DNA of 64,000 nt from assembly GCA_021234155.1 (NCBI GenBank), contig JAJEKV010000062.1, positions 6,354,432 to 6,418,431 on the forward strand, read 5' to 3'. The stretch comes from Isoetes taiwanensis. Lineage: Eukaryota > Streptophyta > Lycopodiopsida > Isoetales > Isoetaceae. A model generated the notes under the pieces. That model worked only from the letters and a program-made list of their open reading frames with translations. It did not search any database and was not told the DNA's origin. Both the position numbers and the translations under genes were made by a program. This document shows positions 9,341 to 54,034 of the stretch, in pieces. Every line of letters begins with the position of its first letter. Position 1 is the first letter of the stretch.

Positions 9341-10088
9341 ATGGTGCTTGACATAAATGGTGTACTGGCACATACACAACAGAGGAGAATGAACGGGAAA
9401 ATCTTGCCTCCACCACAAACGAAGCATGTTGTAAAAGAAACTGCAAGTAAGTACCTCATTTGCAGACCAGGGTGGGTATCATGAGTTTGTGGAGTGGGCA
9501 CTGCAGAGGTTTGATATTGTGATTTGGAGTGCTTCTCTACTTCGGAATACAAGAGATATGGTGGATGCATTGTTCCCTGATTTGCAGACCAGATTCTTGA
9601 AGGTATATGATCAAGAGCATTGCTATGCATGCGAGCATCCAACCAGCAGAGAAAAGCAACTTTTTTTCAAGGAGTTGAAGGTTGTACTTGAGGATTTTCC
9701 TCAATATCATGGTATGATTTTTTTGGTTGATGACAGCCTACACAAAGGGTTTCTAAACCCTGCACACACAACCGTTCCTGTTATGCCTTTCAAGGGGCAA
9801 GAAGAGGACAACTTTTTGCAGAAATTTGTGTGTCCAGCTTTGGAATACTTGTCTTCTCATACAGTACAAGAAACGATCTCACAAATTGACATCTATGATG
9901 CATGGTTGGACAAGGAGACAATTGCAGTGCTGGATTACTGCCTCAACAACTATCTTGTCTCGGCCTACTATATCCTCAATGCTCCATTAGAAGTACAAAG
10001 GCAGCTGCTGGGCACCCTTCCTGGCGAGGAGCATGACTCTGAAGACTTCGATGATTCATTAAGTAACCATTGTACACTACTTTTTTAA
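9341..10088 (+). CDS. FCP1/NIF-like phosphatase domain, frameshifted, transposon cargo
   Basis: The frame starting MVLDINGVLAHTQ (preceded by RKC) is motif I of the HAD-type FCP1/NLI-interacting-factor family, here DxNG rather than the canonical DxDG, a variant I associate with a plant subgroup of these proteins. RPGW follows. The reading then slips one base near 9,470, and the main frame continues EFVEWALQRFDIVIWSAS, the typical motif II region (IWSAS), later KELKVVLEDF and LVDDSLHKGFLNPAH, the VDDS motif with its Asp pair. The protein ends at 10,088. The family dephosphorylates phospho-Ser of the RNA polymerase II C-terminal domain in its best-known members. With Asn at the general acid/base position, activity is doubtful. 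The frameshift falls in a CCAGG context and may be a read error. The domain lies in the transposon, facing the transposase. Confidence 0.75.
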
Positions 10089-11652: not shown

Positions 11653-13309
11653 TGTGACGTTCCAGGACAGTATACGGTCCCAGGACGTAAACTGCCTCGT
11701 CACGCGTACACGCCACTCCGACTGACGTGTACGCCGACGTGTAGCCAAGTGGGTAGCCCCTAAGGGGCAACTTGCTAAGAATGTGCATTTAGTATTAATG
11801 TGCACATTTACCAATGTACACATTAATGTGGGCACACAATTCCATGTGGACACTTTATACCAAGTGGGCCATACCCAAGTGTGCAATTAATGTGCACATT
11901 TACCAATGTACACATTAATGTGGGCACACTTTTCCATGTGGGCACATTTTGCCACCTAGACATTAAAGGCAAGTGGGCCCATTCCCAATTATCCCACATG
12001 CCTAAAGGGGATAATTGGAAACCCTAGCCAACCCCTTGTCTATTTAAGAAGGGAAACCCTAACTTGCCCATTTTTCGTTTCTAGGGTTTTAGAGCTCTGT
12101 TTTGGCTGCCTCAAGAGCCAAAACCGCCTCCCAGACTCTGCCTGAGAGAATTGCACCATTAGTTTCCCTTGATTCGAGCGTTTCAGCAGGATGGTCGAAC
12201 TCAGGTCAGGAGAAGCCACTCAAGAATCAGGTATTTGGCCAATTAAATAGTCTTCACCCTATTTCAGTCATAGAATCAGTAGGTTTAGCCTATTAAATTG
12301 CCCATAGCAGCCTTCTAGATCTCTAGATACCAGACTCTAACTAAAGAACCTAACTCTATGATATAGATTAGATATAGTTCTTTAGTTCTTCGGTGATGTA
12401 TTTGGATGATGTATCTCTATGAACTCCTTGTATTGGGAAGGGGGGTAGAGACCTAAAGCTTGGTAGTAGATGCTCCTAGATTAGCCTCTCTAGCACACTA
12501 TAGATTCGGCCTGTGCATAAGAACCACACCTGGTTGTGGGTGAAAGGGCCAGACTGGCTAAGAAGGAGATTCATGTTCTGACTCTTGAACGATCCCTCTG
12601 GTGTGTAAGGCCTACCAGGGATCATAGTGACTAGGTCTAATGGCTTACCACTGAGTGTGGGTAGGGCATGGACTCGACACCGTGAAGTGGTGTACACTTT
12701 CCGGTGGGTTCGGTCGAATCACAGGCGGTGGCCCTCTAGTCACCTTGAGTCAACATGCGATCTCCCTCGGGGGAGTGATCCCTTCTGCCCCATCGGGCGG
12801 GAGGATGAGACCCGGGAATAGCCCCTTTGGCTATGCATCCGTGAGACTCTGAGTCGAGTCCCGACACTTTTCAGCCTACTCTGCAAAGTATGCACAGGAG
12901 GGGCGGATGGAGTGGACAACCCTATGCCATGATATGCCAGCCAAATCCATTGTCATGAATTCTGTCTGCAATGAACTCTGGAGACCCAAGTCGTCAGTCA
13001 TCCCCTCGAGTCTGAGCCTTGGGTAGGACTCCCCATATGTATTGTGCTCACCTTGTTTATGCAGATGTGATGGACCACCCTTCGAGGTGGGTATGTGCTT
13101 ATGTTATATACTGACATGTATGTTTACGCTTCCGCAGCTAGGTAGGCCCTGAGGGAGACGGGGTAAAATGACCCCTTCACTCTTCCCACTGAAACCCGCC
13201 ACGGTTGCAGTGTCATGTGGAGGGCCCTGTATCGGCATGGAGCTGGTATGGGGGATGAACTCTTGTTTGTATACGGTGAGTGCGCCGTATACGAATAGGG
13301 GACGTCACA
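11653..13309 (+). repeat. Left LTR of gypsy element
   Basis: It starts TGTGACG and ends CGTCACA, a perfect 7-bp inverted terminal pair with the canonical TG...CA ends. It contains an internal pair of diverged subrepeats: caatgtacacattaatgtgg occurs at about 11,811 and 11,904. The primer-binding site follows one base after the end. Confidence 0.9.
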
Positions 13310-13310
13310 G

Positions 13311-13322
13311 TGGTATCAGAGC
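13311..13322 (+). other. Primer-binding site, initiator Met tRNA type
   Basis: TGGTATCAGAGC begins one base after the left LTR. This matches the complement of the 3' end of plant initiator-Met tRNA, the standard primer of plant gypsy elements, and fixes the plus-strand orientation. Confidence 0.92.
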
Positions 13323-13481
13323 AATGTTCTTGGGACCAAGAGCAAAGCATTGACCATGCTCCCAATAGCACTAACTTGATAGGATCCTTAAACCTCGAGA
13401 AATGGGAAATTTTTTTTCTTAGAATGAATGAAAAACATAAAAAGACTAAAATTGGTGAGCCAACCTTCAAAAAGTAGGGTG

Positions 13482-13548
13482 GTCTCACACGTCGCGCCAG
13501 GACAGATAATGAGAATCTCATTTTCGGGTTGGGTGCAACGTGTGAGAC
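13482..13548. promoter_or_regulatory. Hairpin element A1 upstream of H3-like gene
   Basis: The outer arms GTCTCACACGT and ACGTGTGAGAC are perfectly complementary (11 bp). The inside is largely paired and capped by an aatgagaatctcatt palindrome. It is the first of two hairpins in cassette 1 and is repeated as A2 at 15,334-15,400. Both ends carry ACGT cores, the core bound by plant bZIP and bHLH factors (inference). Confidence 0.8.
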
Positions 13549-13680
13549 ATTCAGCTTGAAACACACCAAAAAGTCGTAAATTACGCAAAAATAACTTGAT
13601 AATTCTAATTTTGAGCTAAGAAATAGTAAAATTATATTATACGCTTAAAAAGTGTAAAATTTAATAGCGGGACCCACCAT

Positions 13681-13746
13681 GTCTCACACGTCGCGACAGG
13701 ACAGAAAATGAACTTTTCATTATCGTCTGGGCGCAACGTGTGAGAC
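13681..13746. promoter_or_regulatory. Hairpin element B1 upstream of H3-like gene
   Basis: It has the same outer arms as A1 (GTCTCACACGT/ACGTGTGAGAC), but the cap reads aatgaacttttcatt. It starts exactly 199 bp after A1, the same spacing as A2 to B2, and lies 143 bp upstream of the TATA box at 13,824. Confidence 0.8.
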
Positions 13747-13823
13747 CATGCTTAAATTTAGGTGTTCTAGATGTTTTAGGTAACCCAAAAAGGTAGTTTG
13801 GAATTTGACCTAAAATCGACCCC

Positions 13824-13832
13824 TATAAATAG
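13824..13832 (+). promoter_or_regulatory. TATA box of H3-like gene
   Basis: TATAAATAG in the context cccctataaatag lies 108 bp upstream of the H3-like ATG. The paralogous box at 15,779 sits in the matching place of cassette 2. This suggests an internal Pol II promoter separate from the LTR. Confidence 0.7.
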
Positions 13833-13931
13833 ATCTAGATCCCCCCCATTTCCGCGTCCCCTCCTTAGGAAAATCGCTCTCGCTGCCAAGGCGATCTTCT
13901 GGCGCACAGCTCGGATTGAAGAACCGTCAAA

Positions 13932-15193
13932 TATGGCCCGCACAAAGCAGACCGCCAGGAAGCCCCGCTGACGTGGATCCTCCAGTCAGCCAAAGGATCC
14001 CGCCGATTCGTGAGGATACCCAAGAACGCTTTTCCCAAGAAGGCTTAATCTTCTTCCAAATGAGGAGGCGGATCGATCGGAGCCACCTCGTGACGGGAGG
14101 TCATAGAAGAGGAGCCACGGACATTATGCGTGCCAGATTCTCAAGAGATGGGTCAAGAGAAGAGGAGGAACAGTGGAGGAACGGAGCAGCTAGGGCAGCC
14201 GACCGCCGAGGAGCAACTCGAGGCTTGGGCCCGCCTGGGCAGGAGGGAGGAAGAGAGAGAGAAGCAGCCCGACAAAAGCTTAGCCCTCGGCCAAGAAGCA
14301 GACCTCGCGCCTTCATCGCAAGTATGAAGCCAAGGAGCAACCAGAGAGAGGAGGACAAGAGTCGGAAGACGACCCAACCACCCCGCTGGGCCAAAAAGAA
14401 GAGGAAGGCCAAAGCCATTAAGGCGGGCAAGAGAAAAGTTGTGAAGGTTGGTAAGCGAGCGACGGGTCCCGTCATCAACGAGCCATCAGCGGAGCAGACC
14501 GCCTTCTACCGACGACTCGGACGAAGATTACGTCCCCAACACTGGCGGGGCAAGCTCTTCAAAACCCCCGGCCGTGGAGAAGGAAGTACCGAGCAGCAAA
14601 AGACCGGAAAGGTGAAGAAGAACAACCGGCAAAGCGCCAAGCCCCCACCTTTTCCGACGTGGGATAGAGTTAAAGCCCCGCGACCCCAACGGGAGGCGTA
14701 CGTGATAGACCCGGTCAAGGTCTATCAGAAGAAGATTAAGGAGCACAACGCCTATATGGCGAAGTGGGAGGCGTACAACGCTTACTACCAGGAGCACAGG
14801 GTGAGAACGATTGCAGGCGGACGCCCAACAAAAAGCCAGACCCTGAAGCCGCCGCCACCCAAGCCCAAGCCTCCCAGAGCACCAGGAAAGAAGCGGACCA
14901 AGAGCAAGCAGAAGGAGCAGAGGGCCCTCAAGGAAATCCGGCACTTCCAGCGAAGTTACGGACTCTTGATCCCCCGGGCACCATTTCAACGCTTGGTCCG
15001 AGAAGTCATGCAGGAGTACAACACGGACATGCGCGTGACCGATGAAATGTTGCTGTGCTTACAGGAGGCAGCAGAGGCGAAAATAGTGCAACATTTTGAA
15101 GATTCCATGGCCTGCACAGTTCACGCGAAGAGGGTCACGCTCATGAGGCAGGATATGTACTTAGCTAGACACATCAAGGGAGAACGCCCTTGA
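13932..15193 (+). CDS. Histone H3-like protein with long N-terminal extension, in retrotransposon
   Basis: The ATG at 13,932 opens with MARTKQTARK, identical to the first ten residues of histone H3. The reading slips one base at about 13,960-13,972 into the long frame that ends at 15,193. The last 92 residues (14,915-15,190) form a complete H3 histone fold: ALKEIRHFQRS, LLIPRAPFQRLVREV, LQEAAEAKIVQHFED, HAKRVTLM and a GERP end. Aligned by hand this is about 53% identical to canonical H3, with no insertion in loop 1, so it is not an obvious centromeric CENH3. Between tail and fold lies an unusual stretch of about 320 residues: charged/Arg-rich, then Lys-rich (KKKRKAKAIKAGKRK), a Tyr-rich helical segment (KKIKEHNAYMAKWEAYNAYY), and Pro/Lys (KPPPPKPKPPRAPGKK). 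The gene has its own TATA box, 5' UTR and AT-rich 3' end. Role unknown: possibly packaging element DNA or marking element chromatin. Confidence 0.85.
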
Positions 15194-15333
15194 ACCTTTT
15201 TGTAAATAACGAAAAAATTTTTTAATATAAAGAATTTTTGTGTAAATAATGTGTCCAAATCTTGCTTAATTAGGTTAGGATATTGAATCCTAGCTTTTGT
15301 TTTAATCAAATTGGACCTTTTGAGCAAAATTGA

Positions 15334-15400
15334 GACGATCACGTCGCGCCAGGACAGAAAATGAGAATCTCATTTTCGGGCTGGGTGCAACGTGTGAGAC
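15334..15400. promoter_or_regulatory. Hairpin element A2 upstream of second cassette
   Basis: This copy of hairpin A1 has the same aatgagaatctcatt cap and ACGTGTGAGAC right arm. The left arm is damaged (gagacgatcacgt). It opens the second cassette. Confidence 0.75.
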
Positions 15401-15532
15401 CATGCCCAAAAATGCCCAAAACAGCGCCAAATCGACCAAATAAGGGGTCAATTCTACCTAACTCGGCGAGTTTAGTAGAATTACACCCTTAGATCACCCA
15501 GATTGATTAAGTTTAGCCCATTTAGAACCCAT

Positions 15533-15598
15533 GTCTCAACGTCGCGCCAGGACAGAAAATGAACTTTTCATTATCGGTCTTGGCGCAACGTGTGAGAC
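15533..15598. promoter_or_regulatory. Hairpin element B2 upstream of second cassette
   Basis: This is a copy of hairpin B1, with the cap aatgaacttttcatt and the right arm ACGTGTGAGAC. It starts 199 bp after A2, reproducing the cassette 1 spacing exactly, so the A/B pair was duplicated as a unit. Confidence 0.8.
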
Positions 15599-15778
15599 CT
15601 CGCACCATTTTCTTCACCAAATGATCCCCAAGTTGTTGCAATAGGTTCATTAGTCCATCCTAGCATGCTCAGACCCTAGAAGTAGTCTTCAAACTCTCAA
15701 TTGCACCCTTTAATAGATCAGAATCACCCAATCCCAGTAAATTCTAGATCATCCAAAAATTAGGGTTTTCCCCTTTTC

Positions 15779-15787
15779 TATAAATAG
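15779..15787 (+). promoter_or_regulatory. TATA box of second accessory gene
   Basis: TATAAATAG in the context tttctataaatagg is the same octamer context as the box at 13,824. The following leader shares gctctc.ctgc..aggcgatctt with the H3-like gene's leader, so the two promoters are paralogous. Confidence 0.7.
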
Positions 15788-15900
15788 GTCCTCCACTTCT
15801 CAATTAGCACCTTACAAGTTTGCTCTCCACTGCTTAGGCGATCTTCCAGCTCCCTGAGGCGCTTCCGCATCCGTTTGATACTCTCTTCTTCGCTAGATCA

Positions 15901-17417
15901 ATGGCCATCTGCGGACTTCAGGCGATGGTACAGCGCCAGTGCCCATGCTGCCGAGGCGGATGTCAATGACATCTTCCGAGTCTTTGGGAGAGAAATAGAT
16001 GTGCAAGCCTTTTGAATGCAACCCCAAACATATAGACAAGTCTTAGCAGAGTTCCAAGCTAGGGTAGGACCCTCCCTTGTCCAGTTCCCCTTGCATAGGC
16101 TATTTTGTTCCCCGCCCATCCCTTCAAGCGACCTTGGATGATGTCCCCAACATCGCCAAGTACCTAACTAACAAGGCGCAGAGGCTACCAGACTACATGG
16201 TCCTGACAGCTAACAGGACCAAGTAGTTTTCCTACACCGCCGCCTTAGCTATTTTCCTATCCCACCGTGCGAAAACCCTTTTGGGGGCAACCTCTATTCC
16301 TCCCATGGAGGTGGACCCATAGCAGCCCGAGAAGAAGAGCAGATGCTTTTGGCAAGACAAAGCAAGAGCAAGAAGGAAGGGAAGAAGAAGAGGAGTCGGA
16401 AGACTAAGAGTACACCGAAGCCAGACTCAAGAGGAACGCAACAAAGGCATCAGAGCCGCCAACTTCGAAAGGTAGAGCCGCGCACCATCGAAGTTGTTCT
16501 CCCTCTGGGCTAGGCATCACAAGCCTAGCCCCTCATCATCAACGGAGAGGAGTATCTACTCCTACGACATCCGTAACCTCCCCCAATGTGGAGAGGGAGT
16601 TCCGATTGATGAACCGCCCACCAACCACCAACTGCTAATCGACATGGACGACTTCATCGTCCGGAGTCTCTGCACTTCCGCTCAAGTCGTGGAAGCCGAC
16701 ACCTACTCAGGGAAGCGACTTCCCACATCCGTGCATACAAAGATAAGGCATGTGTTATGGAGACTGAGACCTACTTATCCAAGAAGAGTTCCTCGCCATT
16801 CAGAACGGATGGGGATCGTGAGGCAAGACTACCAAAGATCCCGGGATGCCGAAGTCCTCGACACCACCTCCAAAGAAGAGGAGCGTGAATCGACTCAAGA
16901 AGCCGACTCCACAATCGAAGACTACCGGAGCTCACCAGATAGAGGTCGCATTTAATATGCCGGCGCATAGAGAGCAGAGGCCAAACAAGTGGGGAATCAT
17001 CCGGCGACGCGACAACGACATGTCGGCCGAGGTACTACCTCGCCATCGCCGCTAGACGGGAGAATAGCGTGGTACACCGCAAATTCAGCCCCGTGGAGTG
17101 AGGAAGGAGTGTTTATGCTGATCGTGACTCTCAGTTTCCTAGCAGTATGCTCGGTAATAGCTGCAAAATATCGACTACTCCGGCCCTAGTCAAGAGAGCA
17201 ATGGCACTTGACCCTTCGACTTCGCCATACCTCATCGACGCCAGCGAGATTACGGCCGCGCCCTCACATCCTAATCGCAGAGTGGAAGACTTGGCGAGAG
17301 TTTTGTATGCTCGCAAAAAGCGCCGTTTTCGTGGAACTTGGGTCATTCAAGAGAAACGCCCAAGTTAAGAAGTTCCTTGAGGACAACCCATCTTACGGCG
17401 ATTTCAAGATTAGTTAG
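15901..17417 (+). pseudogene. Second accessory gene, H2B/H2A-like signatures, frame-broken
   Basis: Open segments in two frames can be followed from about 15,860 to a stop at 17,417. The first shows VNDIF, then 17 residues, then Thr, the spacing of histone H2B helix 2 and loop 2 (VNDIF...TITS). It continues to LVQFPLHRLF, which resembles the LQFPVGR start of H2A. After a slip near 16,131 come YLT, 25 residues, LAI, 8 residues, LLG, 3 residues, Ile (16,161-16,298), exactly the H2A spacing, with RTK where H2A has KTR. An in-frame TAG lies at 16,224. This suggests an H2B-H2A fusion in the order known from viral histone doublets. A Lys/Arg-rich region follows (KARARRKGRKKRSRKTKS), then unidentified sequence, with a weak H4-like C-terminus near 17,250-17,330. 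Identity by letter is low, so the assignment depends on spacing. Confidence 0.45.
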
Positions 17418-17579
17418 ACTCTTGATCCAGGAGACTTTTGTACTAAAATATTATATAATATAAATATAATTTCCTTTTGCACTTCAAATGTTTTGTTGAT
17501 GTATTTTGTGTCCCCAACTATACCAACAAACATAAATAATGCAAGAGAACAAGCTAAAACTAACTATATAGCCATGAAC

Positions 17580-18960
17580 TACTTGTGTATGCAGCTAGAG
17601 GCCTAGGCTCGGGAACGATAACGCCGAGACCATATGGAAGAACAGAGTCCGCCAGTGCCACCTCGAAGCAAGGAACTTTGTTCGAGGAATTTGGACCCAT
17701 GACCCCTAAGAGAAAAATATCACGATGATGAGGCGGACCTTGAGCGAGATAAAGGCTTTGTTAGCCGCAAGGCGGGAGAGCGGGGTCGGTGTGGCACGCC
17801 AGCTTGCCTCAAGCATCAACTCGGAAAACAGGAAGGGACAAGAAGAGGAGCAAGAGAAGGAGGTCCTCCAGCTCGGAATCCTCCGACTCAAGTTCAGATT
17901 CAGACTCCGACTCAGAGGAAGAGGAAGATCAGGCCCAGGACCGAACAGATGCAAGGCAAAGAAACATCGGCAGATGCAAAAGGCGAGGGACGCCATGGAG
18001 GGACGACAAAGGGACACCGTGAGCCTCCTCGACTACCGAAGAAGGTAGATTCGCAGACCGGCAATGTATGGAAGGCCCGAAATCGAAACAGCTTCCGGGG
18101 AGAAACAGTGCGGGATTAGAAAGAGGCATGGCTGGATTTAAATGAGTGAGTACGGCAATGCTTATGGCATGAAGGATAAAGACAAAGGCAAGAGTGGCAA
18201 CAACCAACTTGAAAGGAGCCGCATCTAATTTGGTGGAAGGGTTATGCAAAGGCACATGGCTTAAGCTGGGATGCTTGTAAGTTCATAAAGTTTGCTAAAG
18301 CCTTCAAAGCGCCATTACGCCCCAAGGAGCACAAGTCCAAAGATGATGCAACGATTCTACACAGTTGCAACAGGGAAACAAATCAGTCCGTAAATATACT
18401 GAGAGGAATTCATGAGGTTAAGACTTTATGTGCCAAAGTTGGGGAAAAACATGCAGTGAGAGCTACATTGAGGGCCCTCGAATGAGGAGATCCCAAGCTT
18501 GTAAGGGCAATAAATCTAAAAGACGATGATCGTAAGCGAGTCCAAGGCAATAAGCTTGCAAGGAACGGGACCTCTAATAGCGGGCGGAGGCAAAGATTAC
18601 CGGGGATAAAGGCAAGGCAACAGGAGTTATAGCCCTAGGGCAGCGCCAGTCCAGTCGACTAGAGCCCATATGGTGGCAAACGGGGGAAACAAAGCCGGAG
18701 AAGAAGCGGAGGTGTCCTTCAAGGACAAGGTGGGGGTCAAACTACTCCAAAGCGTCTGCGATCCTTTTGCGAGCTATGCCCAAGGAAAATAGACAGAGTG
18801 CATAGAAAAGCGACTTTTGCTTCAGGTGCTTCCGGCCAAAGCCATAGGGACGTCGAACCGCCCCTTACGTCATGAGAAAAGACTAGCAGAATTGGGAGAT
18901 TGGGACACTCGGCCCACGACGATGGAGGAAGGAAGGCCGCGACTACATTCAGGGTGAGTG
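17580..18960 (+). pseudogene. Degenerate gag region of gypsy element
   Basis: Multiple broken plus-strand frames lie directly upstream of the protease. A Ser/Asp/Glu-rich low-complexity stretch occurs at about 17,850-17,930. A coherent helical segment (ACKFIKFAKAFKAPLRPKEH at about 18,270-18,330, then KTLCAKVGEKHAVRATLRAL) looks like capsid sequence. Near 18,808 FCFRCFRPK begins a zinc-knuckle-like Cys-x2-Cys motif. This order (capsid, knuckle, protease) fits a Ty3/gypsy gag, although no canonical gag signature survives. Confidence 0.55.
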
Positions 18961-19024
18961 TCATATCTTTGCCGCAATAGATACAGAGCAAGCAGAGAGC
19001 TAGTATAAAGTAATTTCCACAATA

Positions 19025-19463
19025 GGGAAGGCCAAGACCAAGTCCTTCATAGTCTTGATAGACTCAGGAAGTAGCCATAACTTTGCATCCCCCAGAATGG
19101 TTCAAATGTTGAAGTTGAAACCACTAAAGTCAAAGCCAAGGCCCGTTGTCTTAGCAAGTGGAGCAGTGGAAGGCAGACAGGCAAGAGAATTAACTTCGAC
19201 ATCGACTTGCCAGGGATTAATATCCAGATGGGGGCAGAAGTAATGGGCATTGGCAAGTACGACTTGATCATAGGAATGGAGTACCTTGGACCAGCAGGGG
19301 CCATTATTGATTGTGGAAAGCGGAAGGTGACCTTCCCAACGCCCGACGGCAAAATCATTGAGATCGCAGGTAAAGAAGTTGTTCCCATCATGCGGTGTAT
19401 GTCTTCTAAATGGTCGTTCAAGTGCATCAAGAGCGGCTTGGGTAGCATACATCTTCAAGCTTG
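19025..19463 (+). pseudogene. Gypsy aspartic protease domain
   Basis: AKTKSFIVLIDSGSSHNFAS contains the DSGS active site of retroviral-type aspartic proteases (Asp at about 19,058). After a frame slip near 19,200, YDLIIGMEYLG and the trailing GKRKVTF match the C-terminal part seen in plant chromovirus proteases. It would process the Gag-Pol precursor. The frame is interrupted, so it is inactive as read. Confidence 0.8.
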
Positions 19464-19557
19464 AGATTGATGAGCCGTAATCAAGAAAGCAAAGAAGACA
19501 AGGTGCTCGCAAGTTGCCGGCAAATAGCTAAGCTGATCCGCGGAGTTCCATGATCTC

Positions 19558-20261
19558 TTTCCGGATGAGATCAAGCAGCTTCCTCCTTACAGGGGAGTCG
19601 AGTGTGAGATAGCACTCGAACCAGGAACAAAGCCGACAAGCAAGGCTCCATACAGAATGACGACGCAGGAGTTGACGGAGCTGAAGAAGCAATTACAGGA
19701 GTTGCTCGACCTAGGCTTCATTAGACCTAGTGTCTCGCCATTTGGAGCACCCATTCTCTTTGTAAAGAAGAAGGATGGCAGTTTCGGGATGTGCATAGAC
19801 TATAGGCGGTTGAACAAGCACACCATTAAGAACAAGTATGCTCCCCCGCATCGATGACTTGATGGATCAGCTCCAAGGTGCAAAGCTCTTCTCCAAAATC
19901 GAATTTAAGGTCGAGGTTATCATCGATCAGGATAAAGGAAGAAGATATCCATAAGACCGCCTTCAGAACGCGGTATGAGCATTATGAGTTCACGGTAATG
20001 CCTTTCGGATTATCGAATGACCCCACGACGTTCATGAGGCTCATGAACGACATCTTCAGGGAGTTTTTAGACACCTTTGTGATTGTATTCTTTGACGACA
20101 TTTTGGTGTATAGCAGATCCCTTGAAGAACACGTACAACACTTAAGGAGAGTGCTGGAAAAGTTGAAGAGGCATCAGTTGTACGCCAAGTTGTCGAAGTG
20201 TCACTTCGCAACGGAGAGGGTGGAATACCTAGGGCATGTGATATCAGGAAGGAATTTCTGA
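19558..20261 (+). pseudogene. Gypsy reverse transcriptase domain
   Basis: [18 protein letters not shown] opens the linker before RT. Then come [20 protein letters not shown] and [19 protein letters not shown], the usual fingers motifs. After slips at about 19,850-19,920, [29 protein letters not shown] and the catalytic [11 protein letters not shown] (DD at about 20,095) follow, ending in EYLGHVIS. All the signatures are those of Ty3/gypsy RT. At least two frame breaks are present. Confidence 0.88.
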
Positions 20262-20529
20262 CGGATCCCGCCAAGATTGAAGCAATGATTCAAATGGCCG
20301 CAATCAAGAATGTGCATGAGGTCAAAAGTTTTTCGGCTAGCGTGGTACTACGTAAAGTTTGTGAAGAACTTTGCCAAGATAGCGCCCCGGCTAATGTAAT
20401 TTGACGAGGGCGGAGAAGGTGAAAGATTGGGCGAGCATTGGCACAAGAAAGCCCAAGGTGGTTTGAATTGTTGAAGGAAGCTTTAACAACAGCCCCACCC
20501 TCGACCGGACCCAGAGAAGGATAAGCTTT

Positions 20530-20884
20530 GTAGCGCATGATGCAGTAAGATAGCTATTGAAAGGGCAAAGGCTCATGCAAGAAGCGCGGTGGTAGCGATG
20601 ATTCCGTGAAGATGAACGAAAACGCGCTTACCCAACCCACGATCAGGAATTGCCGGCGGTTGTCGTGGCATTAAGAATTTGGAGGCACTAACTTTTTGGG
20701 AAGAAAGTTCCAATTGGATACTGCACCATCGAGCCTCCAAAGATGTATTTACGCTAACCACACCTCAACCCGAGGGCAAGAGAAGGTGGATGGAGTTCCT
20801 TGAAGAGTATGACTTTGATATAGTCTACAAGCCGTGGAAGCTCAACGTGGTAGCGATGCGCTTTCAAGGCATCCCCGACAACTA
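20530..20884 (+). pseudogene. Gypsy RNase H domain remnant
   Basis: Fragments AYPTHDQELPAVVVALRIW and RRWMEFLEEYDFDIVYKPWK correspond to the helix and end of the RNase H/connection region of gypsy polyproteins (typically ...YDQELLAIVxAL and RWxxFLxEYDFxIxYxPGK). Frames change between them. Confidence 0.75.
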
Positions 20885-21059
20885 GAGTGCATTGCAATGC
20901 AATTTCGACGCTCTCCAAATGACTTTGGTAAGAAGATGAGTCCTTGCCAACGGATGTGGATTTCGTGGAAGTATGGGCAAGCCTCTCTAGGGAGGCTAGA
21001 AACGTATAAGGAGCGGGAAGCCTTTAAACATTATAAGAAGGAAGGCAACCTGTTATACC

Positions 21060-21790
21060 ATAAGAACAAGTTGTGCGCACTCGATCATCAGTGTAAGGAA
21101 ATTGATCCTCCATGACACGCGACAACAGCCCAATAGCTGGCCATCGCGGGATTCATGAAAACATATTTCAAAGTGCGCACAGCTATTATTGGCCAGAATG
21201 AAGAAGCAAGTAGCTTCGCTACATCGTGGAATGTCGGCTATGTCGTGACAGACGGCGAGCATGCCGAATTCCAGGAGCATTAGAGCCATTAGCGATTGCC
21301 AAACGCTAGTGGGGAGGTGATCAACATGGATTTCATCACGTGGCTTCCAAGAACAAGAAGAGGAAAGGATGCATTGATGGTAGTGGTCGACAAGTTGTCA
21401 AAAGATGGCACATTTTGTGCCTTGCGTGACCACGATACTGGCTATGGATACTGAGAAAGCTCTTCACCAAAGAGATCTTAGGGGCTTCATGGCATGCCAA
21501 GGAGATTATCTCCCGGCGAGGGGATCGAAGTTTATGAGTGCCTTTCTCGCAAGACCTCTTTGGCGACCATTTAGGCGAAACTATCCATGAGCACGGGCGT
21601 ATCATCCTCGACGGATGGCCAAACGGAGCGGACCAACAGGATTTTGGAAGACATGCTACTAAACTATGTCGGAATAAACAAGGTATGTGGGAAGAATTTA
21701 TTCACTTGGTGGAGTTTGCATACAATAGCACCAAGCAGGAATCATCCCAAATGTCGCCAGTTTATGATTAATTACGGCTATCGCTAACTC
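21060..21790 (+). pseudogene. Gypsy integrase domain
   Basis: GHRGIHENIF then SAHSYYWPE at about 21,140-21,200 represents the HHCC zinc-binding module. NMDFITWLPRTRRGKDALMV at about 21,325-21,380 contains the first catalytic Asp region, continued by MAHFVPC. SSTDGQTERTNRILEDMLL at about 21,605-21,660 is the conserved integrase segment that in intact elements carries the catalytic Glu (as in DGQTER.N). Several frame slips make it inactive as read. Confidence 0.85.
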
Positions 21791-22199
21791 GGACACTTGG
21801 CACAATCCAGGTGTCAAAAGTAGAGGTTTCCACAGCAGATGTTGACCGATATGCAGCAGCTCGTGGAAGAAGTTCGAGGATATCCGCTAGCAGCAAGAAG
21901 TCTGCAGTAAGAGCATCGCCGACAAGCATCGAAATGAGAGTTCAAAGTTGAGATGATGTTTGGCTCAAGATCAAGGTCAAGCAAGCTGGCTCAAGCGGGA
22001 ATAGGGAATTGCAAGAAGCTTGCTCCAAGGTGGCTGGACCTTCGTAATAGTCAAGAGAGTAGGTAATCAATCCTACAAGCTAGACTTGCCAAAGACACCT
22101 AAAGATTCATAAGGTCTTCCACGTGAGTTTGTTGAAGAAGCACACTCCAAATCCGCACGAAGTCTTGGACACTCCAACGTTGTTGGAAATGACAGAGGA

Positions 22200-22400
22200 G
22201 CATTTGGAAATAATTCCGAATTGATTCTTGATAAAGCTTTCAAGAAAAACAAGGAGGTCGGAGTTCCTCCAATATTTGGTTAAGTGGAAACACTTACCGG
22301 TGGGAAGACGCCGACGTGGGTACTTAAGAAAGATCTAATAAAGCAAAGCACCAAGTTTATGGAGCAATGGGGACGGCAAAGTCATCTCGAAGAAATCGCC
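22200..22400 (+). pseudogene. Chromodomain-like C-terminus of gypsy integrase
   Basis: YLVKWKHLP at about 22,273-22,300, followed after a slip by WVLKKDLIKQSTKFMEQWG-like residues, resembles the integrase-fused chromodomain of plant chromoviruses (YLVKWKG...W). Chromodomains bias insertion toward particular histone marks, which is suggestive in an element that also encodes an H3-like protein. The call rests on a short motif. Confidence 0.5.
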
Positions 22401-22409
22401 GGTATGTCG

Positions 22410-23300
22410 ATTTGTGTAGATTAATTCTTGTATAGTTAAGATTAATTCACGATGCAACCTATGCTAGGTATGTGTCGCATGCGTTGTTACCGGATGATGG
22501 GACCACTATGGTGATCTCTAGGGCGTGGGTGTAATGTCAATGTAGGCATGACCGCGTTTCGCTTTGGATGAGTGGAAGGTAGATTAGAAAGTCTACTACG
22601 TCCCACTAAGTAGACGACCTCGAGAGAAAGGAGGTCATTAAGGAATGCACCGATAGGAAAAGCACCTCTAGCCCCATATATGCTTTGATAGGAGGAATCA
22701 GGCCTTCACGCCCCATATCTGGGAAGGACCTATCCTCCATTTGGGCAACTAGGGTGTAGGCATGAGCTGCATATAGGCATATAGGCTGTCTGCCTCCACG
22801 GCCATAATGGAAGATTCACCCTCTTCCTACAGCAGGAGATTAGCCATGCATCCATGTAGATAGGTGGGTGGTCACCATATAACCAAAATTTTATTAATAA
22901 CTAAAATGGTACTAACGTAGTGTCGACTGCAGCCAATAGAGCGCCTCGGGAGGGCAAGGAGGTCGAAGTTCTGAAGACTTGCAACACAAATTTTGTTGGA
23001 ATGTGTTGCAAGGAATGAAGAGTACCTCGAACAATAATGTTAGACATGAAATGTTAAAATTTTGATAAACTTAATTATCGTGATAAGTAAAACTATCGAA
23101 AGTAACTTGCTTAAAGATGTTATGAATTGATAAGTTATTTCATAATATAATGGCGTGATAATGTTCTAAAAAATATTACCTTAAGGTAATCTTAATAAAA
23201 ATGTGTAAGCATTATAGTAGTTTATCGTATGTATCGGGTTGATTGCGGGTTAGGATGATCCCAAGGTGGGGAGACCCACGTCGTCGGGCGGCATCATTTC
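22410..23300 (+). other. Non-coding 3' region of gypsy element
   Basis: No open frame of note. It contains gcatataggcatatagg-type short repeats, AT-rich stretches and an early duplicate of the polypurine motif (aaggtggggaga at about 23,261). Confidence 0.6.
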
Positions 23301-23313
23301 AAGGTGGGGAGAA
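23301..23313 (+). other. Polypurine tract
   Basis: AAGGTGGGGAGAA directly abuts the TGTGGCG start of the right LTR. It is the plus-strand primer for reverse transcription. Confidence 0.88.
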
Positions 23314-24951
23314 TGTGGCGTTCGGTGACAAAGATAACGGTCCCGGGGCGTATCGCATCTTATCTTGCCCACGCCGCAGCATTACCCGCCGCCGAGGCGG
23401 CGTGCGGCCACACATGTAGCCAAGTGGGTAGCCCCTAGGGGGCAACTTGCTAAGAATGTGCATTTAGTATTAATGTGCACATTTACCAATGTACACATTA
23501 ATGTGGGCACACAATTCCATGTGGACACTTTTATACCAAGTGGGTTATACCCAAGTGTGCAATTAATGTGCACATTTACCAATGTACACATTAATGTGGG
23601 CACACTTTTCCATGTGGGCACATTTTGCCACCTAGACATTAAAGGCAAGTGGGCCCATTCCCAATTATCCCACATGCCTAAAGGGGATAATTGGAAACCC
23701 TAGCCAACCCCTTGTCTATTTAAGAAGGGAAACCCTAACTTGCCCATTTTTCGTTTCTAGGGTTTTAGAGCTCTGTTTTGGTTGCCTCAAGAGCCAAAAC
23801 TGCCTCCCAGACTCTGCCTGAGAGAATTGCACCATTAGTTTCCCTTGATTCGAGTGTTTCAGCGAGGGATGGCCGAACTCACTTCACCCTATTTCAGTCA
23901 TAGAATCAAAAAAGAGGGTTTAGCCTATTAAATTGCCCATAGCAGCCTTCTAGATCTCTAGATACGGACTCTAACTAAAGAACCTAACTCTATGATATAG
24001 ATTAGATATAGTTCTTTAGTTCTTCGGTGATGTATTTGGATGATGTATCTCTATGAACTCCTTGTATTGGGAAGGGGGTTAGAGACCTAAAGCTTGGTAG
24101 TAGATCCTCCTAGATTAGCCTCTCTAGCACACTATAGATTCGACTGTGCATAAGAACCACACAGGTTGTGGGTGAAAGGGCCGACGGCTAAGAAGGAGAT
24201 TCATGTTACGACTCTGAAGCCATCCCTCCGGGTGTGTAAGGCCTACCGGGGATCATAGTGACTAGGTCTAATGGCTTACCACTGAGTGTGGGGGTAGGGC
24301 ATGGACTCGACACCGTGAAGTGGTGTACACTTTCCAGTGGGTTCGGTCGAATACACGGGCGGTGGCCCTCTAGTCACCTTGAGTCGGCATGATGATCTTC
24401 TCGGAGGGAGTGATCCCTTCCCCGCCCCATCGAACCGGGAGGATGAGACCTGGGAATAGCCCCTTTGGCTATGCATCCGGGGCTCTGATCGAGGTCCCGA
24501 CACTTTTCACCTACTCGCAAAGTGTGCAATGGGAGGGGCGGATGGAGTGGACAACCCTATGCCATGTTCATATGCCCAAATCCATTGTCATGAATTCGGG
24601 CACCGCAATGAACTCGGAGACCCAAGCCGCCGGGTCATCCCCTCGAAGCCCCGAGCCTTGGGTAGGACTCCCCCATATGTATTGTGCTCACCTTGTTTAT
24701 GCAGATGTGATGGACCACCCTTCGAGGTGGGTATGTGCTTATGTTATATACCGACATGTATGTTTACGCCCGCAGACTAGGTAAGCCCCGAGGGAGACGG
24801 GGTAAAATGACCCCTTCACTCTTCCCAATGGAACCCCGCCCTAATTTGCGGTGTCATGTGGAGGGCCCTCAGACGGGCATAGAGCTGGTATGGGGATGAA
24901 CTCTGTTTGTATACGGTGATGAGTGCGCCGTATCTGAATAGGGACGCCGCG
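23314..24951 (+). repeat. Right LTR of gypsy element
   Basis: It starts TGTGGCG and matches the left LTR over nearly its whole length. Its first 85 bp and its last bases (gacgccgcg against gacgtcaca) are the most divergent parts. Many internal mismatches coincide with CAG or CTG in one copy. Confidence 0.88.
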
Positions 24952-26970
24952 AACCTCCCTTTGTATTTTTATGCTGTAATTCTCGCAAAAATCAATTACG
25001 AAACAATGGTGCCATCTTGGATATTGTCCAGCAACTCACGAATTGCATGGCACGCCATCTAGCCCACAGAATTGTGTGGCGACGAATATCTTCAATGTGG
25101 AACATGATATGAAATGAAATCCTTCCTTTGCCGTTCTCTTGTAAGACAATCTAAGGGTGGCTTTGGTCCTTTCTTTTTTTCCCCTTGCCATTTGAGGTCT
25201 CGTCTTGTCTTTGCGACTTGGCACGTGTCCCACCGACTTCCTTGGGTTTCTTACTTTTGTTTCCCTTCTTCTCAACTTCTGCTGCAGCTTCAGGCTGTGT
25301 CCCACCAGCTACCTTGGATTTCTTACTTTTGTTTCCCTTCTTCTCAACTTGTGCTGCAGCTTCAGGCTGTGTCCCACCAGCTACCTTGGATTTCTTACTT
25401 TTGTTTCTCTTCTTGGTGGCATTGGCTCTTTTCTTTCTGTTGCCACCTGGCACCTCCTTGGTAACTTTCGATGCGCAACTCCACCGACTTCTTTCTCCTC
25501 TTTGGAATCTGTAACAAGGTCTGTAGCATAAAACAGAAGATTAGCGCAAGTTGAAAGCACAAAAGCAGTATTCATCGGATGACAGCACATATCAGCATGT
25601 TTCAGCATGCAATAAAGAGAGTATTACCTTTTCAAACGTCTTCCATTCAAGCAAGAACTCATGATTCTCTCTTTCTCTTGGACATATAGGAAGAGTTTTT
25701 ATGCCACGCCGACATGTCCGCATCAAGCGTCATGTTTATGTCATTCTTCACCCTCGCTCTTGTTGCAAAACCATGACCTTCGAGCTCGGTTGGTTGAGTC
25801 ATATATACGTTGGTGGCCGAGACACTTCTCACCAGTCCACGAGACCTCGCAGTGCACTTGCACTCTTCACCACGAAATAGTTTTCGGTGACCTTAATGCA
25901 TTCGGGCTACCACGGCATACTCCAACTTCATATGGTATATGCAACAACAGGTTTCCCTTTTCTCGATACTTTCTTTATATAAATAGGCTTCAACTTCTCA
26001 AAGCCTTTAAGCAAACAGGTGTTAGGATGTGCCTTTTTGTATTGTTGAAATAGCCGAGTTTGAATGGTGGCCGTTGGTTAGAAATATTTATGCAATAAGG
26101 GCAAAAAAAAATTTGTATGGAAACTTATACAGTGTGACCTCCATAAAGTCACGGGGGATAAGAAATTGAAGCCCTGACTCTCCAAACGGTGTTCACAACA
26201 TCTTTCTTGCAAGGAGAGACTGCTATTTTGTTTCAATTCTGATATGCTTTGCTTGCGGGGATGAGAGAATCGCACCTCAACCTCCTTTGGAAGCTAGACC
26301 ACGGACCATTTCCAAGAACGGCTTCCGATTTTCTTAATGCAGCAGTTGCAATTGTTGACCTCATGCAACCTATCATAAGAAATATTGCACATTAATCAAT
26401 GAACATATCCCCCAAAGATCACTTTCAGATACAAGCACTTAAAAGCATGAAGAAGCACAGGCATGAAAGCAAGAATTAGATGTACCTAACAGCCCTGCCA
26501 TAGTGGAATTGCATCTCGATTTTGTGGAAGAAGCCATCACCAGTGTCGAGGTTCTGGCTCTCCAAATATCATGGTTCCTTTGCCTCTTTGTGGCTGCCAT
26601 TGTCTGTTTCAAGTTGTTGAGCAGCACCCCCGCTGCCTTGCACTCCTTTGGATTTGGCAAAATTCCGTGTTGAGATTTCCATTTCGTGGTGATGAACCAC
26701 CCTCTTCATCACATCGGCCTTGAGTTCGGGTGAATGCTTTTTGGTGAGCTTGTTGAAGTAATCAACTACAAGCTTGGCTATTTCTTGCCTGCGTCTCGTG
26801 CTCAGATCCTCCCGTTCAACCGCTGCTTTCCTCATCTTATTCCGTAATCTGTATTCTCTCTTTCTCTCTGCATCCAATTTCTTGTAAATTGCAGAGGAAA
26901 CTGGATCTTCACGCGATATTTCCTGTGTTGCATTGACATCCAACAAACGGAACATCGTATTGGAATTCAT
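24952..26970 (-). pseudogene. DDE-type transposase, 5' part (several exons)
   Basis: This is the upstream half of the transposase, continuing the 10,363-11,652 fragment across the gypsy insertion. A start is likely at 26,970 (MNSNTMFRLLDV), followed by a highly charged coiled segment (AERKREYRLRNKMRKAAVER). A donor-like AG|GTACATC is at about 26,483 and an acceptor at about 26,370. A further exon ends EFLLEWKTFEK|GTAATA at about 25,629. The next exon carries Lys-rich repeats, then CHAIRELLDNIQDGTIVS and, after a slip, VIDFCENYS at about 24,990. The last is the conserved DFxENY block that precedes SDG in this family and probably holds the first catalytic Asp. The exon structure is approximate. 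Confidence 0.65.
25225..25430 (-). repeat. Coding minisatellite in transposase exon
   Basis: Three tandem units of about 66-69 bp encode variants of KSKKSKVAGGTQPEAAAQVE (the last unit diverges after GGT). The array sits in frame just upstream of the catalytic region and would give a basic, flexible linker. Confidence 0.8.
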
Positions 26971-36348: not shown

Positions 36349-38421
36349 GTTAATGTTGACAAAACAAGACGGATTGTCAAAGATATCAACCTGAAGAGGC
36401 ATCTGACTCTAGTAAAATAACAAAAAGAGGCATGTATTGTACATTTTACATTTTTTTCGAAAGCCCTTGACAGATTCAAGATTAAAAGAATTTTCCATAC
36501 TGTTATGCATGAAGTATTAAATGACAGGGGCACTGAATTGGTCAATAAAACCACGTTTGCCTGGAGATACATAGACCAGGTCAGAAATAAAGTTTGCAAA
36601 CCCTTCAAGGTATTTGCTGAAGGATCTCTTAATCATTGTCCTTGTAAAAATCCTAATCTAAGTAGGTTTCTGGATCCTTTGATTGGGCATATCAGAACCA
36701 CTAATTTGGACATAATCCATTGTAAAAATTTGAGAAAAGCATTTGAATGTGGGCTTAACCATATTCCTGAAGATGGCTTGTCAGTCCAAGACTTCATGGT
36801 TGACTTTAGTAAAGCTTGTCAGCAGTTCATAAACATACACAGGTTTCAACTTCTGGACTTGACAGATTGGGATTTACAGAATATATGTGGTATGTTGGAA
36901 CATTTGGCTCATGTAGAAATCACAGATTTCAAGGCAAATTTGGATCCCAAAAGGTTTTTATGGAAGGATCCTGATGTAAAGAAGAACCTTATATGACTCA
37001 ATCATAATCTGTTTGTAACTGAGTTAGATAAGGCCAGTAACAATGCTGCTTTTATTTGTCCTTATCATATTGCTGAAGCAGCAATTAATAGGCTGAATGG
37101 GGATGACTTCCAGAAATGTTTGGAAAGTCCTAATGACATAAAAAAATCCTGTGCCAAGGATATTTCTGCTTTTATTGGAAATGAGCACATGGGGTCTTCA
37201 AAATTACCATATCTTATGGCAATCTACAAGGCCCATAAGTTGGAGTATAGATGGATAACTAATGCAAACTCAACTGTGTTTTCTGAAATCTCAAACCTTA
37301 TTACTGGAATACTTAACCAGTGTATACAAATATGGCCCAGTATTTGCCATAAGAAAACTGCCAGACTAAGACTATGGGGTCAGAATAAAGTAAATCCATG
37401 TTGGATTATCAATTCGGTGTATGATATAGTATTAAATCTGCCTTTGAAAATTTATGATGTATGTTCAGTGGACATCACCAAATGTTATGAAACAATCCCG
37501 CTGAATGGGGCTGAAGGTATCATAGAAATTATTAATGACATTGTGGATATGACATGGGAACATCAAATGATGGAGGCAAGATTGTTTGACTTGATTTACA
37601 AGTTTTAAAATGATGAAGTCTGTGTAAAATGGGTAAGATCAGCAAAGGACAAAATATTTGTCAGTTGGACATACATAGATAAGGAAACTTTTAAAGCAGT
37701 GAACAATTGGCTTTTAAGCCATTGTTTCTTACAGATGGGTAACAAAGTCTGGAGACAAATCAGGGGAATCCCTATGGGCTTTTCATGTAGCCCTGCTTGG
37801 TGTGTATTATATTTGGCATGGTACGAACTGAGGTTTATCTTTAAATTGGCAAATGCAGGGAGAATTTCAGACATTTATAGGTTCAAGTATGCTGCCCGAT
37901 ATATCGATGATTTAAATATCATTAATGGTGGGAATCTAAGTGAGTTCTTTTCGAAAGAATCGGATATTACTATCTACAACATGGATGTGCTTGGCATTAA
38001 AGATGAAACTGTATATAGCAACAATGTGGGAAATGTTGGGATAGAATGCAACTTCCTGAATTTGTCCATACAGGTTATTGACCCTGACAGAGGTATATTT
38101 AGGATCTCGAGATATGACAAGCGATTGAAACTACCATTCAAGGTGTGCAAGTTTATCAAAGCTTGGAGCTGTAGACCATATGCACAGTCATCTAAAGTTA
38201 TTTTATCCCAAGTGCTCCCTTATTTGTACACGCATTCTGATGCAAAAGAGGCAGCTGAAGACATTATGGAATTAATGAATGAGTTCTGTCGAAATGGCTT
38301 TGCCAAAAAAGACATTACAAAAGGGATTTTACAGATTTTGCATAAAGAAGTTTTTCCTGGTCTGTTGTACAGGTTTGGAGACATGTTCCGAGAGCTTAAA
38401 AGATTAATGAGTATCCAATGA
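36349..38421 (+). pseudogene. Penelope-like reverse transcriptase
   Basis: After intron 2 the frame reads VNVDKTRRIVKDINLKRHL and continues to 38,421 with three in-frame stops (36,418; 36,994; 37,606). Landmarks of PLE-type RT: ELDKASNNAAFICPYHI; SSKLPYLMAIYKAHKLEYRW, the P...K.HK...R fingers block; CSVDITKCYETIPL, motif A with the first catalytic Asp; QIRGIPMGFSCSPAW, motif B; and ARYIDDLNIIN, motif C with the Asp pair at about 37,903-37,911. NFLNLSIQVIDPDRG and RISRYDKRLKLPF follow. The ...IPMG.. and RYIDD blocks are those of PLE and telomerase-like RTs, not of LINE or LTR enzymes. Stops may be genuine or read errors. The catalytic residues are intact. Confidence 0.85.
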
Positions 38422-52438: not shown

Positions 52439-54034
52439 TTAGCAATTATTGTTCTCCACGCCGAGAGAGAGACAATTGCCATAATTGCCTAATTTCTTTC
52501 TGATCCTTGCAACTATTGGAGACCATAACTCTTTTAAACTGGGATTGAGTGACAGAGGCATACCTAGCAGGCTTGTTGTCTCAGTTGATCTAATGCATTT
52601 GATACCTGCAATGCTATCAATGTCCACATCACCAATAATAGTACATTTATTTAGATTCAGCTGTATGCCAGAAGCAGCTCCAAAGATGTGAATGATGTGA
52701 AGGAAATTGGCAATGATGCTAGAATCATTCTTGAGGAAGCTGAAAGAGTCATTTGCATATTGGAGAATGGACAGATTGATTGTATTGTCAGGAAGATTAA
52801 GTCCAACAATATTCCCCATAGATTGATGATAGGTAATCACTCTAGTTAACATCTCTGCTACAACCAGAAAGAGATAAGGTGCTAGGGGACATCCCTGTCT
52901 CACACCTCGAGCAAGAGGGAAAAAATAACCAGGGGAACCATTGACAAGGATAGTTGATTGAGATCTAGAATTTAAGCCCAAGATAAGCTTAATGATCTTT
53001 TCACTGAAGCCAAGCTTTTGAAGAGAGAATTCTAGAAAGTTCCACCTAACAGTATCAAAAGCTTTTGAGAAATCTAGCTTGAGCAAAATGCAGTTTTGCT
53101 TAGTAAGATTATTCCAATGCATTCCCTCCATGGCTGCAATGTAATTGTCCAGGATGAATCTGTTGGGAAGGAAGGCAGATTGATTCAAGCTGATAACCTC
53201 TTGGAGATGAGATTTAACCCTGTTAGCTATGATTTTGGCACAGACCTTATAAGTGGAGTTTGTCAGAGAGATAGGCCTCCAGTCAGAGAAGGACTGAGGA
53301 TTGTCAACTTTAGGAATTAAAGTAATAAAGCCAGATGAGAGAGAAGGATGAAGGTGATTTGAGTTCCATAAACCTTTGATCATATGCACAAAGTCATCTT
53401 TGAAAGTTTCCCAAAATGTAATAAAAAATTCGGGGGGCAACCCATCAGGACCTGGACTTTTACCTTTTGCAAGACTTTTTAGAGTGGAGAAAATCTCTTC
53501 AGCATTTGGAATAGCCTCCATTGCAGGGGTCATGGCAATGTTACTGTGAAGGCCATTAGTTTCAATCAAATCAGTGAAAGATTTAGCTTCTGCAATTTGG
53601 ACATGACTGTCTCTGGGTTGGGAGAAAATATTAGCATAGCTTGAGCAGAAGAAGTTGGAAATTTCTTTTTGATCAGTAATGGTGTTATCATTTCCATCCT
53701 TGACTGAGGTAAGTTGACTTTTCAGAAGCCTAGACTTAGCAACTCTATGGAAAAACCTTGAATTTCCATGATCCATGTTAGATAGGTATTTAAGTTTACA
53801 TCTGATAGATGCACCTTTTGCTTCCAGCTCTTCAATGGTTTTAATTACCATTTCCAGATTTCCTTCTTGTCTATGAAGCTCAATGTTGAAGGGGTCTTCT
53901 TGCAGATTAATTCTAACCTCCTTCATTTCCTGCAGATAAGATTTCTTTTCTGCCTGCTTGATCTCATGAAGATTCTTTGACCATTGTTTAATCCAGGCCT
54001 TGGATTTTTTAATATTGGCATAGAAGGTTCTCAT
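52439..54034 (-). pseudogene. LINE reverse transcriptase with altered YADD box
   Basis: A single 531-codon frame holds most RT landmarks of plant L1 elements: FFHRVAKSRLLKSQL, LAKGKSPGPDGLPPEFF, ITLIPKVDNPQSFSDWRPIS, NQSAFLPNRFILDN, LKLDFSKAFDTVRW (motif A), GVRQGCPLAPYLF (motif B). Motif C reads LQYANDSFSF, so the first catalytic Asp of YADD has become Asn, which should abolish polymerisation if real. The frame is otherwise intact, so this may be a recent mutation. Confidence 0.88.

Follow-up and report, generated by a model that had tools for sequence, protein, structure and literature searches.

Transposons and host chromatin are in long-standing conflict, and retroelements read histone marks through chromodomain integrases. 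Whether a retroelement may also bring a histone of its own is the question raised by a 64,000-nucleotide stretch of the Isoetes taiwanensis genome (the window, meaning the whole stretch analysed here). The initial annotation placed a gene that starts with MARTKQTARK and ends in an H3 fold between the primer-binding site (PBS) and gag of a Ty3/gypsy element in the window.

The gene lies directly 3′ of the PBS of a Ty3/gypsy chromovirus. The features of the element in the window are as follows.

11737..13309, + strand: 5′ LTR, from alignment of the LTR pair; ends GGACGTCACA, with the same end beside the PBS in sister copies
13311..13322, + strand: PBS TGGTATCAGAGC; same motif behind the 5′ LTR in 7 of 10 sister 5′ stretches
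13420..13932, + strand: promoter-like stretch P1, with two ~60-nt palindromic hairpin repeats (13488, 13687) and TATAAATAG at 13824
13916..15193, + strand: frame-2 ORF with the H3 fold at its end; first part out of frame with the tail
13933..13971, + strand: H3 tail mimic MARTKQTARKPR, then a stop (frame 1, window copy)
14921..15190, + strand: H3 histone fold, 90 residues, αN to C-terminus, from profile and PDB sequence matches
15194..15900, + strand: promoter-like stretch P2, with the hairpin repeats of P1 again in two copies (15340, 15538) and TATAAATAGG at 15779
15901..17400, + strand: ORF-X region, broken in the window copy, 508 aa in a sister copy, no known domain
17400..19000, + strand: gag region, with the CCHC knuckle seen in a sister copy
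19000..22420, + strand: pol region (protease, RT, RNase H, integrase, chromodomain), in pieces in the window copy
23301..23313, + strand: polypurine tract (PPT) AAGGTGGGGAGAA; identical sequence 5′ of the 3′ LTR in sister copies
23314..24951, + strand: 3′ LTR, beginning TGTGGCGTT, with a diverged end

The coordinates of the 5′ LTR are those of its aligned part; its initial ~100 nt, which start at about 11640, give a poor alignment. The PBS is complementary to what we take to be the 3′ end of plant initiator tRNA-Met. Pfam matches to RVP_2 and RVT_1 are found within the window element, and sister copies supply the integrase (rve), H2C2, RNase H, CCHC, and chromodomain (PF00385 at 1.8e-8). The DNA of the sister copies with integrase, CCHC, and chromodomain is alignable to the window throughout. 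LTRs with TG...CA ends, the PBS, the PPT, and a PR-RT-RH-IN order with a chromodomain identify the element as a Ty3/gypsy chromovirus, in agreement with the context first proposed. The proposed position of the gene stands in part: it does follow the PBS directly, but ORF-X intervenes before the CCHC-bearing gag. Stops and frame changes break up the protease and RT pieces of the window copy. Because nanopore reads underlie the assembly (PMC8566536), part of these breaks may be sequencing errors.

A TATA-like motif and common hairpins are located 5′ of both the H3 ORF and ORF-X. The ~60-nt palindromic repeats (CACGTCGCGCCAGGACAGAAAATGAGAATCTCATTTTCGGGCTGGGTGCAACGTGTGAGAC) form two pairs, one 5′ of the H3 ORF (13488/13687) and the other 5′ of ORF-X (15340/15538). 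Three head-to-tail 72-nt repeats occupy 25225-25440. Other features of the window are an ORF with an NLI-interacting-factor (FCP/SCP-type) phosphatase domain (9489-10085, + strand; Pfam 2.6e-11), a non-LTR retrotransposon reverse transcriptase (52439-54031, − strand; RVT_1 8.9e-32), and an ORF (37699-38418, + strand) that shows RT-like motifs by eye (GIPMGFSCSP, YIDD) without a Pfam match.

The fold is that of H3, as annotated. It matches Pfam Histone with an E-value of 3.7e-28, and its best PDB sequence matches are H3 with E-values of about 2e-27, values that reject a chance match to a histone. The MARTKQTARK start, encoded by ATGGCCCGCACAAAGCAGACCGCCAGGAAG at 13933, and the canonical length of loop 1 in the alignment also agree with the annotation. 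Hereafter, element H3 with the MARTKQTARK tail, a long linker, and the fold (the window copy and its sisters) is called class A. The annotation had joined tail, a linker of ~320 residues, and fold in one gene. This arrangement is present in 15 of the 40 copies examined, but not in the window copy, in which the tail in frame 1 stops at once and the fold is in frame 2. The window copy is therefore not one continuous gene, because the supposed 320-residue linker spans a frame break. The 40 copies comprise the 20 best matches (window copy included) and 20 hand-picked ones, mostly with long frames, so that 15 of 40 is a biased rate.

The 15 continuous ORFs encode 400–439 residues from MARTK. The class A linker of ~300 residues is long, basic and acidic, and holds long basic stretches (KKRKAKAIKAGKRKVVKVGKR). 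In the tail motif, S10 of H3 is replaced by proline (ARTKQTARK-P). In most continuous ORFs of one subgroup, MARTK is preceded by a second methionine (MMARTK), a start that may block exposure of Ala1. An AlphaFold model of the class A protein, of low confidence (pLDDT 52.7 overall), places helices at H3-fold positions and leaves the linker largely disordered with two long helices.

The class A fold differs from host H3 at nearly half its residues. Across 37 class A folds, no variation is seen at residues C110, H113, K115, R116, V117, T118, M120, D123, L126, I130, G132, E133, R72, and T80, and R69, R83, and P66 are retained in 36 of the 37. We take C110, H113, K115, R116, V117, T118, D123, L126, R72, and T80 to be H3–H3′ and DNA contacts. 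Interface residues are largely conserved. Compared with host H3, R63P, L65A, K79N, F84V, S86-A88 to DEM, K122Q, R129H, and R131K are fixed or nearly so, and R63P, L65A, F84V, K122Q, and R129H are at contact positions. The chaperone-recognition stretch of α2 reads EMLL in class A versus HAVL in a host H3. The invariant residues and the fixed changes together indicate that the C-terminal dimer part is kept and that some DNA-contact and chaperone positions are altered.

In sister copies, the H3 gene is a constant component of the element. Searching this genome with the fold gave 9,156 candidates, of which 150 were scored; all are 91–100% identical over the fold, 11 have a stop inside the match (counted from the table), and 41 have an open frame of at least 400 residues. 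A DNA pattern coding for MARTKQTARKP has 419 exact matches, a genome-wide total irrespective of class, and the reversed pattern has none. Six 9.9-kb sister stretches were compared piecewise with the window. P1, the H3 gene, and P2 are present in all six, with P1 84–92% identical to that of the window. The full order (promoter-like stretch, H3, promoter-like stretch, ORF-X, gag region, PR, RT, RH, IN, and chromodomain, with the 3′ part present) is found in four (L021, L022, L023, and L026); in L024 the match breaks off soon after ORF-X begins, and L025 is without PR and RT. Ten sister LTR pairs were aligned: five nearly full length at 92.8–96.9% identity, one at 89.7%, three partially (two of them through the cut of the stretch taken), and one without alignment. 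One pair is flanked by a clean 5-bp target-site duplication, AATAG. The expectation that other gypsy copies carry the gene is thus borne out, and at the same place.

Variation among the copies indicates strong purifying selection on fold and tail. All dN/dS values given here are counting estimates (Nei–Gojobori). For 38 folds (without L013 and L020, dropped because of frame or stop), dS averages 0.546 and dN 0.0185, and dN/dS is 0.034; 18, 15, and 77 of the 90 sites are variable at first, second, and third codon positions, respectively. Sampling by protein similarity favours low dN, so elements were also sampled by the noncoding flank P2. This search gave 3,069 candidates, of which 40 were scored, all at 92–100%, and 20 of the 39 others than the window copy were examined. 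The fold is retained in 19 of these 20 elements, at least six of which overlap the first sample. Eleven of the 19 folds are free of indels and stops and eight are broken; with the broken copies included, dS is 0.349, dN is 0.038, and dN/dS is 0.110. The proposed test of selection on the fold thus gave purifying values in both samples. The evidence that the annotation had named against its own reading (a gene missing elsewhere, a one-off insertion, or neutral dN/dS) was sought and did not appear. The sister copies, the dN/dS values, and the 19 of 20 flank-picked folds exclude a one-off host histone pseudogene for the class A family.

A host H3 gene might instead have been copied into one element and amplified as a passenger without function. 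The eight broken flank-picked folds and the frame-broken window copy fit such a history, but indels in a nanopore assembly may partly be errors. Moreover, ratios of 0.034 and 0.11 at mean dS of 0.55 and 0.35, together with the codon-position pattern, require selection on element lineages. We regard the passenger history as hardly credible. The LTR pairs of the five sister copies with nearly full-length alignment differ by 3–7%, far below the mean dS of the fold between copies, indicating that the constraint acted along old element lineages and was not confined to recent bursts.

The constraint is unequal along the element. In the 15 continuous ORFs, dN/dS is about 0.007 for tail codons 1–12, 0.196 for the linker, and 0.034 for the fold. 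The tail codons carry many synonymous differences, and their ratio is conditional on the presence of MARTK, which leaves residues 6–12 as the fair test. In six elements, dN/dS is 0.126 for the protease (10 pairs) and, with 15 pairs each, 0.273 for RNase H–integrase, 0.249 for ORF-X, 0.212 for the H3 linker, and 0.040 for the H3 fold. Gene by gene, therefore, the fold is the most constrained part of the element among those measured there. Selection on the H3 gene across many copies suggests that the elements use their own histone. In the same six elements, synonymous divergence of the H3 gene (dS 0.44–0.47) is three- to fourfold that of pol (0.12–0.16); an exchange of modules between lineages could account for the higher value.

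A second class of H3 loci was found with a canonical plant H3 query. Among 150 matches scored of 8,881 candidates, 15 are host-like at 98–99% identity and 135 are at 86–90%, with open frames of up to 546 residues. Ordinary complete H3 is encoded at all 12 host-like loci examined of the 15. At three loci of the second group (L099–L101; class B), an ORF of 478–486 residues joins an unrelated N-terminus of ~390 residues to a near-canonical H3 fold. A second ORF (MDYAGRLAWYMGG...) lies 3′ of the H3 ORF in all three, and a match to the PBS leader lies upstream in two of the three. By extension from these three loci, all 135 matches may be element genes. Class B proteins are without the ARTKQTARK tail. 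For 22 class B folds (the three seen in context and 19 in frame of 20 more, one with a stop being dropped), dS is 1.61, dN is 0.050, and dN/dS is 0.031, compared with 0.019 for 12 host H3 genes. In a tree of 33 sequences, class B forms a single clade (support 89) close to host H3, and a long branch (0.95) leads to class A, the position of which is not fixed by the tree. The two classes may reflect at least two histone acquisitions, or one old acquisition followed by strong divergence.

A long, divergent N-terminal part on an H3 fold, with some residues in common, also recalls CENH3/CENP-A, and class A might be a histone of the CENH3 type by which the element is directed to centromeres. Class A shares the motifs ALKEIRHFQ, LLIP, LQEAAE, and RVTLMR with Arabidopsis CENH3. 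However, loop 1 of class A is of canonical length, in contrast to the longer loop 1 of CENH3, the start of the tail is identical to H3, and the gene is a dispersed, multi-copy element gene. In the tree, Arabidopsis CENH3 does not group with class A, the placement of which is not fixed, but with a 250-aa long-tailed H3 from environmental contigs (P0003; support 92). An ordinary CENH3 is rejected on loop 1 and on the grouping. The distribution of the copies also speaks against steering to centromeres. The 150 class A copies are spread over 80 contigs, with 4 pairs within 20 kb (0.27 expected), 9 within 100 kb (1.35 expected), and 18 within 1 Mb (13.5 expected). The excess at 20–100 kb indicates short-range clustering, as nesting would produce, and the lack of an excess at 1 Mb indicates that the megabase concentration typical of centromeric elements is missing. 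Repeats are reported to be evenly spread in this genome (PMC8566536). Overall, a role as centromeric histone is very improbable. A search with a CENH3 query (150 scored of 6,771 candidates) gave no clear host CENH3; its best matches are host H3 loci at 56%. Many other matches in that search, absent from the scored matches of the fold and canonical H3 searches, are H3-like, with frames of 438–567 aa and equal scores, perhaps another subgroup of class B.

ORF-X, which separates the H3 gene from the CCHC-bearing gag, is conserved among copies (dN/dS about 0.25), is preceded by its own promoter-like stretch (P2), and encodes ~508 aa in a sister copy (L022, 2563-4086). The protein has no Pfam match up to E 1, a PDB sequence search gave two matches (E 0.15 and 0.37), and its AlphaFold pLDDT is 36. 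It resembles the second ORF of class B by eye, but the results of BLASTP (E 0.039) and hhalign (probability 7%, E 0.005) are too weak for us to propose a common origin.

According to the annotation, no retrotransposon is known to encode a core histone, and no printed account of a histone-encoding LTR retrotransposon was found in the open-access literature, a scope that leaves subscription journals and preprints outside. The word “histone” does not occur in the main text of either Isoetes genome paper, and nothing on the class A element was found in the portion of PMC11687628 covered. Against a protein database, the fold-bearing end of the window ORF gave five proteins of 304 candidates, all histones, that cover 35–58% of that region in four cases and 69% in one. 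With the complete ORF of a sister copy as query, there were 1687 matches; among the 120 listed, query coverage is 29–56%, mostly ~30%. No protein with the class A linker was recognised among the matches listed.

The closest precedent is H3L, an H3-like gene within a hAT DNA transposon of the fungus Pyrenophora tritici-repentis (PMC3538342). As in our case, a transposable element carries an H3-like gene whose N-terminal tail is altered and an ORF of unknown function and has been amplified, and H3L matches neither H3 nor CENH3 fully. However, H3L belongs to a DNA transposon with 26 near-identical copies, for which the authors suggest drift (PMC3538342). Class A belongs to an LTR retrotransposon with far more copies and old lineages under measured purifying selection, and its tail is identical to residues 1–9 of H3. 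Single histones are also known from viruses: H4 in bracoviruses, and H3 in a xenomavirus, a phycodnavirus, and Sylvanvirus (PMC9145170). These, too, are single core histones captured by mobile agents, often with a lengthened tail, and the α2 site of class B (HAIL or FAIL) is similar to the TAIL found in two viral H3s, but the viral genes belong to DNA viruses, and the main text of the review has no word starting with “retro” (PMC9145170). The class A element resembles plant chromoviruses (PMC3605345) in its LTRs, PBS, CCHC, protease, RT, RNase H, integrase, and C-terminal chromodomain, but has two extra ORFs 5′ of gag, one of which encodes the histone. Additional ORFs beside gag–pol are known from plant LTR retrotransposons, and the word “histone” is absent from the main text of a review of them (PMC7264820).

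What, then, does the histone do? The initial annotation had offered condensation of element DNA, recruitment of H3K4/K9 modifiers by tail mimicry, or exchange into chromatin at insertions, any of which may apply. On balance we favour an H3 variant that belongs to the element, forms a pair with host H4, and exerts its effect on chromatin by way of its tail. A Ty3/gypsy chromovirus lineage of the quillwort would have acquired an H3-type gene and retained it between the PBS and gag. The protein, presumably made from its own internal promoter, would use the conserved H3 interface to pair with host H4 and would enter nucleosomes on element DNA or host chromatin. Its modifiable tail would recruit or occupy host H3K4/K9 writers and readers, and the element would profit by gaining access for its integration or by escaping silencing. 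Single histones of viruses probably become part of host nucleosomes, and the bracovirus H4 does so (PMC9145170). The EMLL stretch and the contact changes nevertheless mean that host chaperones may not accept the class A protein. In the chromodomain of the element, the first and third residues of the aromatic cage are missing, as judged by eye, which places it in plant group II. Group II plant chromodomains are without a full cage, and the cage defines H3K9me binding (PMC3605345). The incomplete cage argues against a simple loop in which the chromodomain reads K9me on the tail of the element's own histone.

The divergent chaperone site, the basic stretches of the linker, and the place of the gene beside gag would also suit a protein that serves the nucleoprotein of the element outside host chromatin, binding RNA or cDNA in the particle or the pre-integration complex and aiding condensation and nuclear import, with or without host H4. 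This function would leave unexplained why the ARTKQTARK tail is the most conserved part and why the H3 dimer interface is retained, and we consider it unlikely. Histone-tail mimicry by viral proteins is known, and the tail, nearly invariant in the 15 continuous ORFs and with S10 replaced by proline, might act as a decoy that titrates host H3K4/K9 modifiers and readers and so weakens silencing, with the fold as an anchor or relic. The constraint on the fold (0.034) nearly equals that on the tail, indicating that the fold is no relic, and class B proteins are without the tail; we consider a decoy role slightly less likely still. An H3 variant paired with host H4 and acting through its tail remains our preferred explanation. 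In a further-reaching version, which we put forward tentatively and hold to be somewhat doubtful, every class of element produces a private H3 variant (with a modifiable, H3-identical tail and long linker in one class, and with another N-terminus joined to a near-canonical fold in the other) that takes the place of host H3 in nucleosomes on element DNA or at target sites and so controls integration or silencing.

If private variants of this kind exist, histone capture would be a recurrent strategy of retroelements, adopted at least twice in one genome. A retroelement that supplies a histone with both tail and fold under selection would shift from a reader to a writer of chromatin. Such elements would offer a natural test of an H3 variant with a 300-residue linker and a plant system in which to test tail mimicry. 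Element genes also inflate the histone counts of genomes like this one (9,156 and 8,881 first-look candidates here, partly scored), and element H3 genes may be a source of new host H3 variants.
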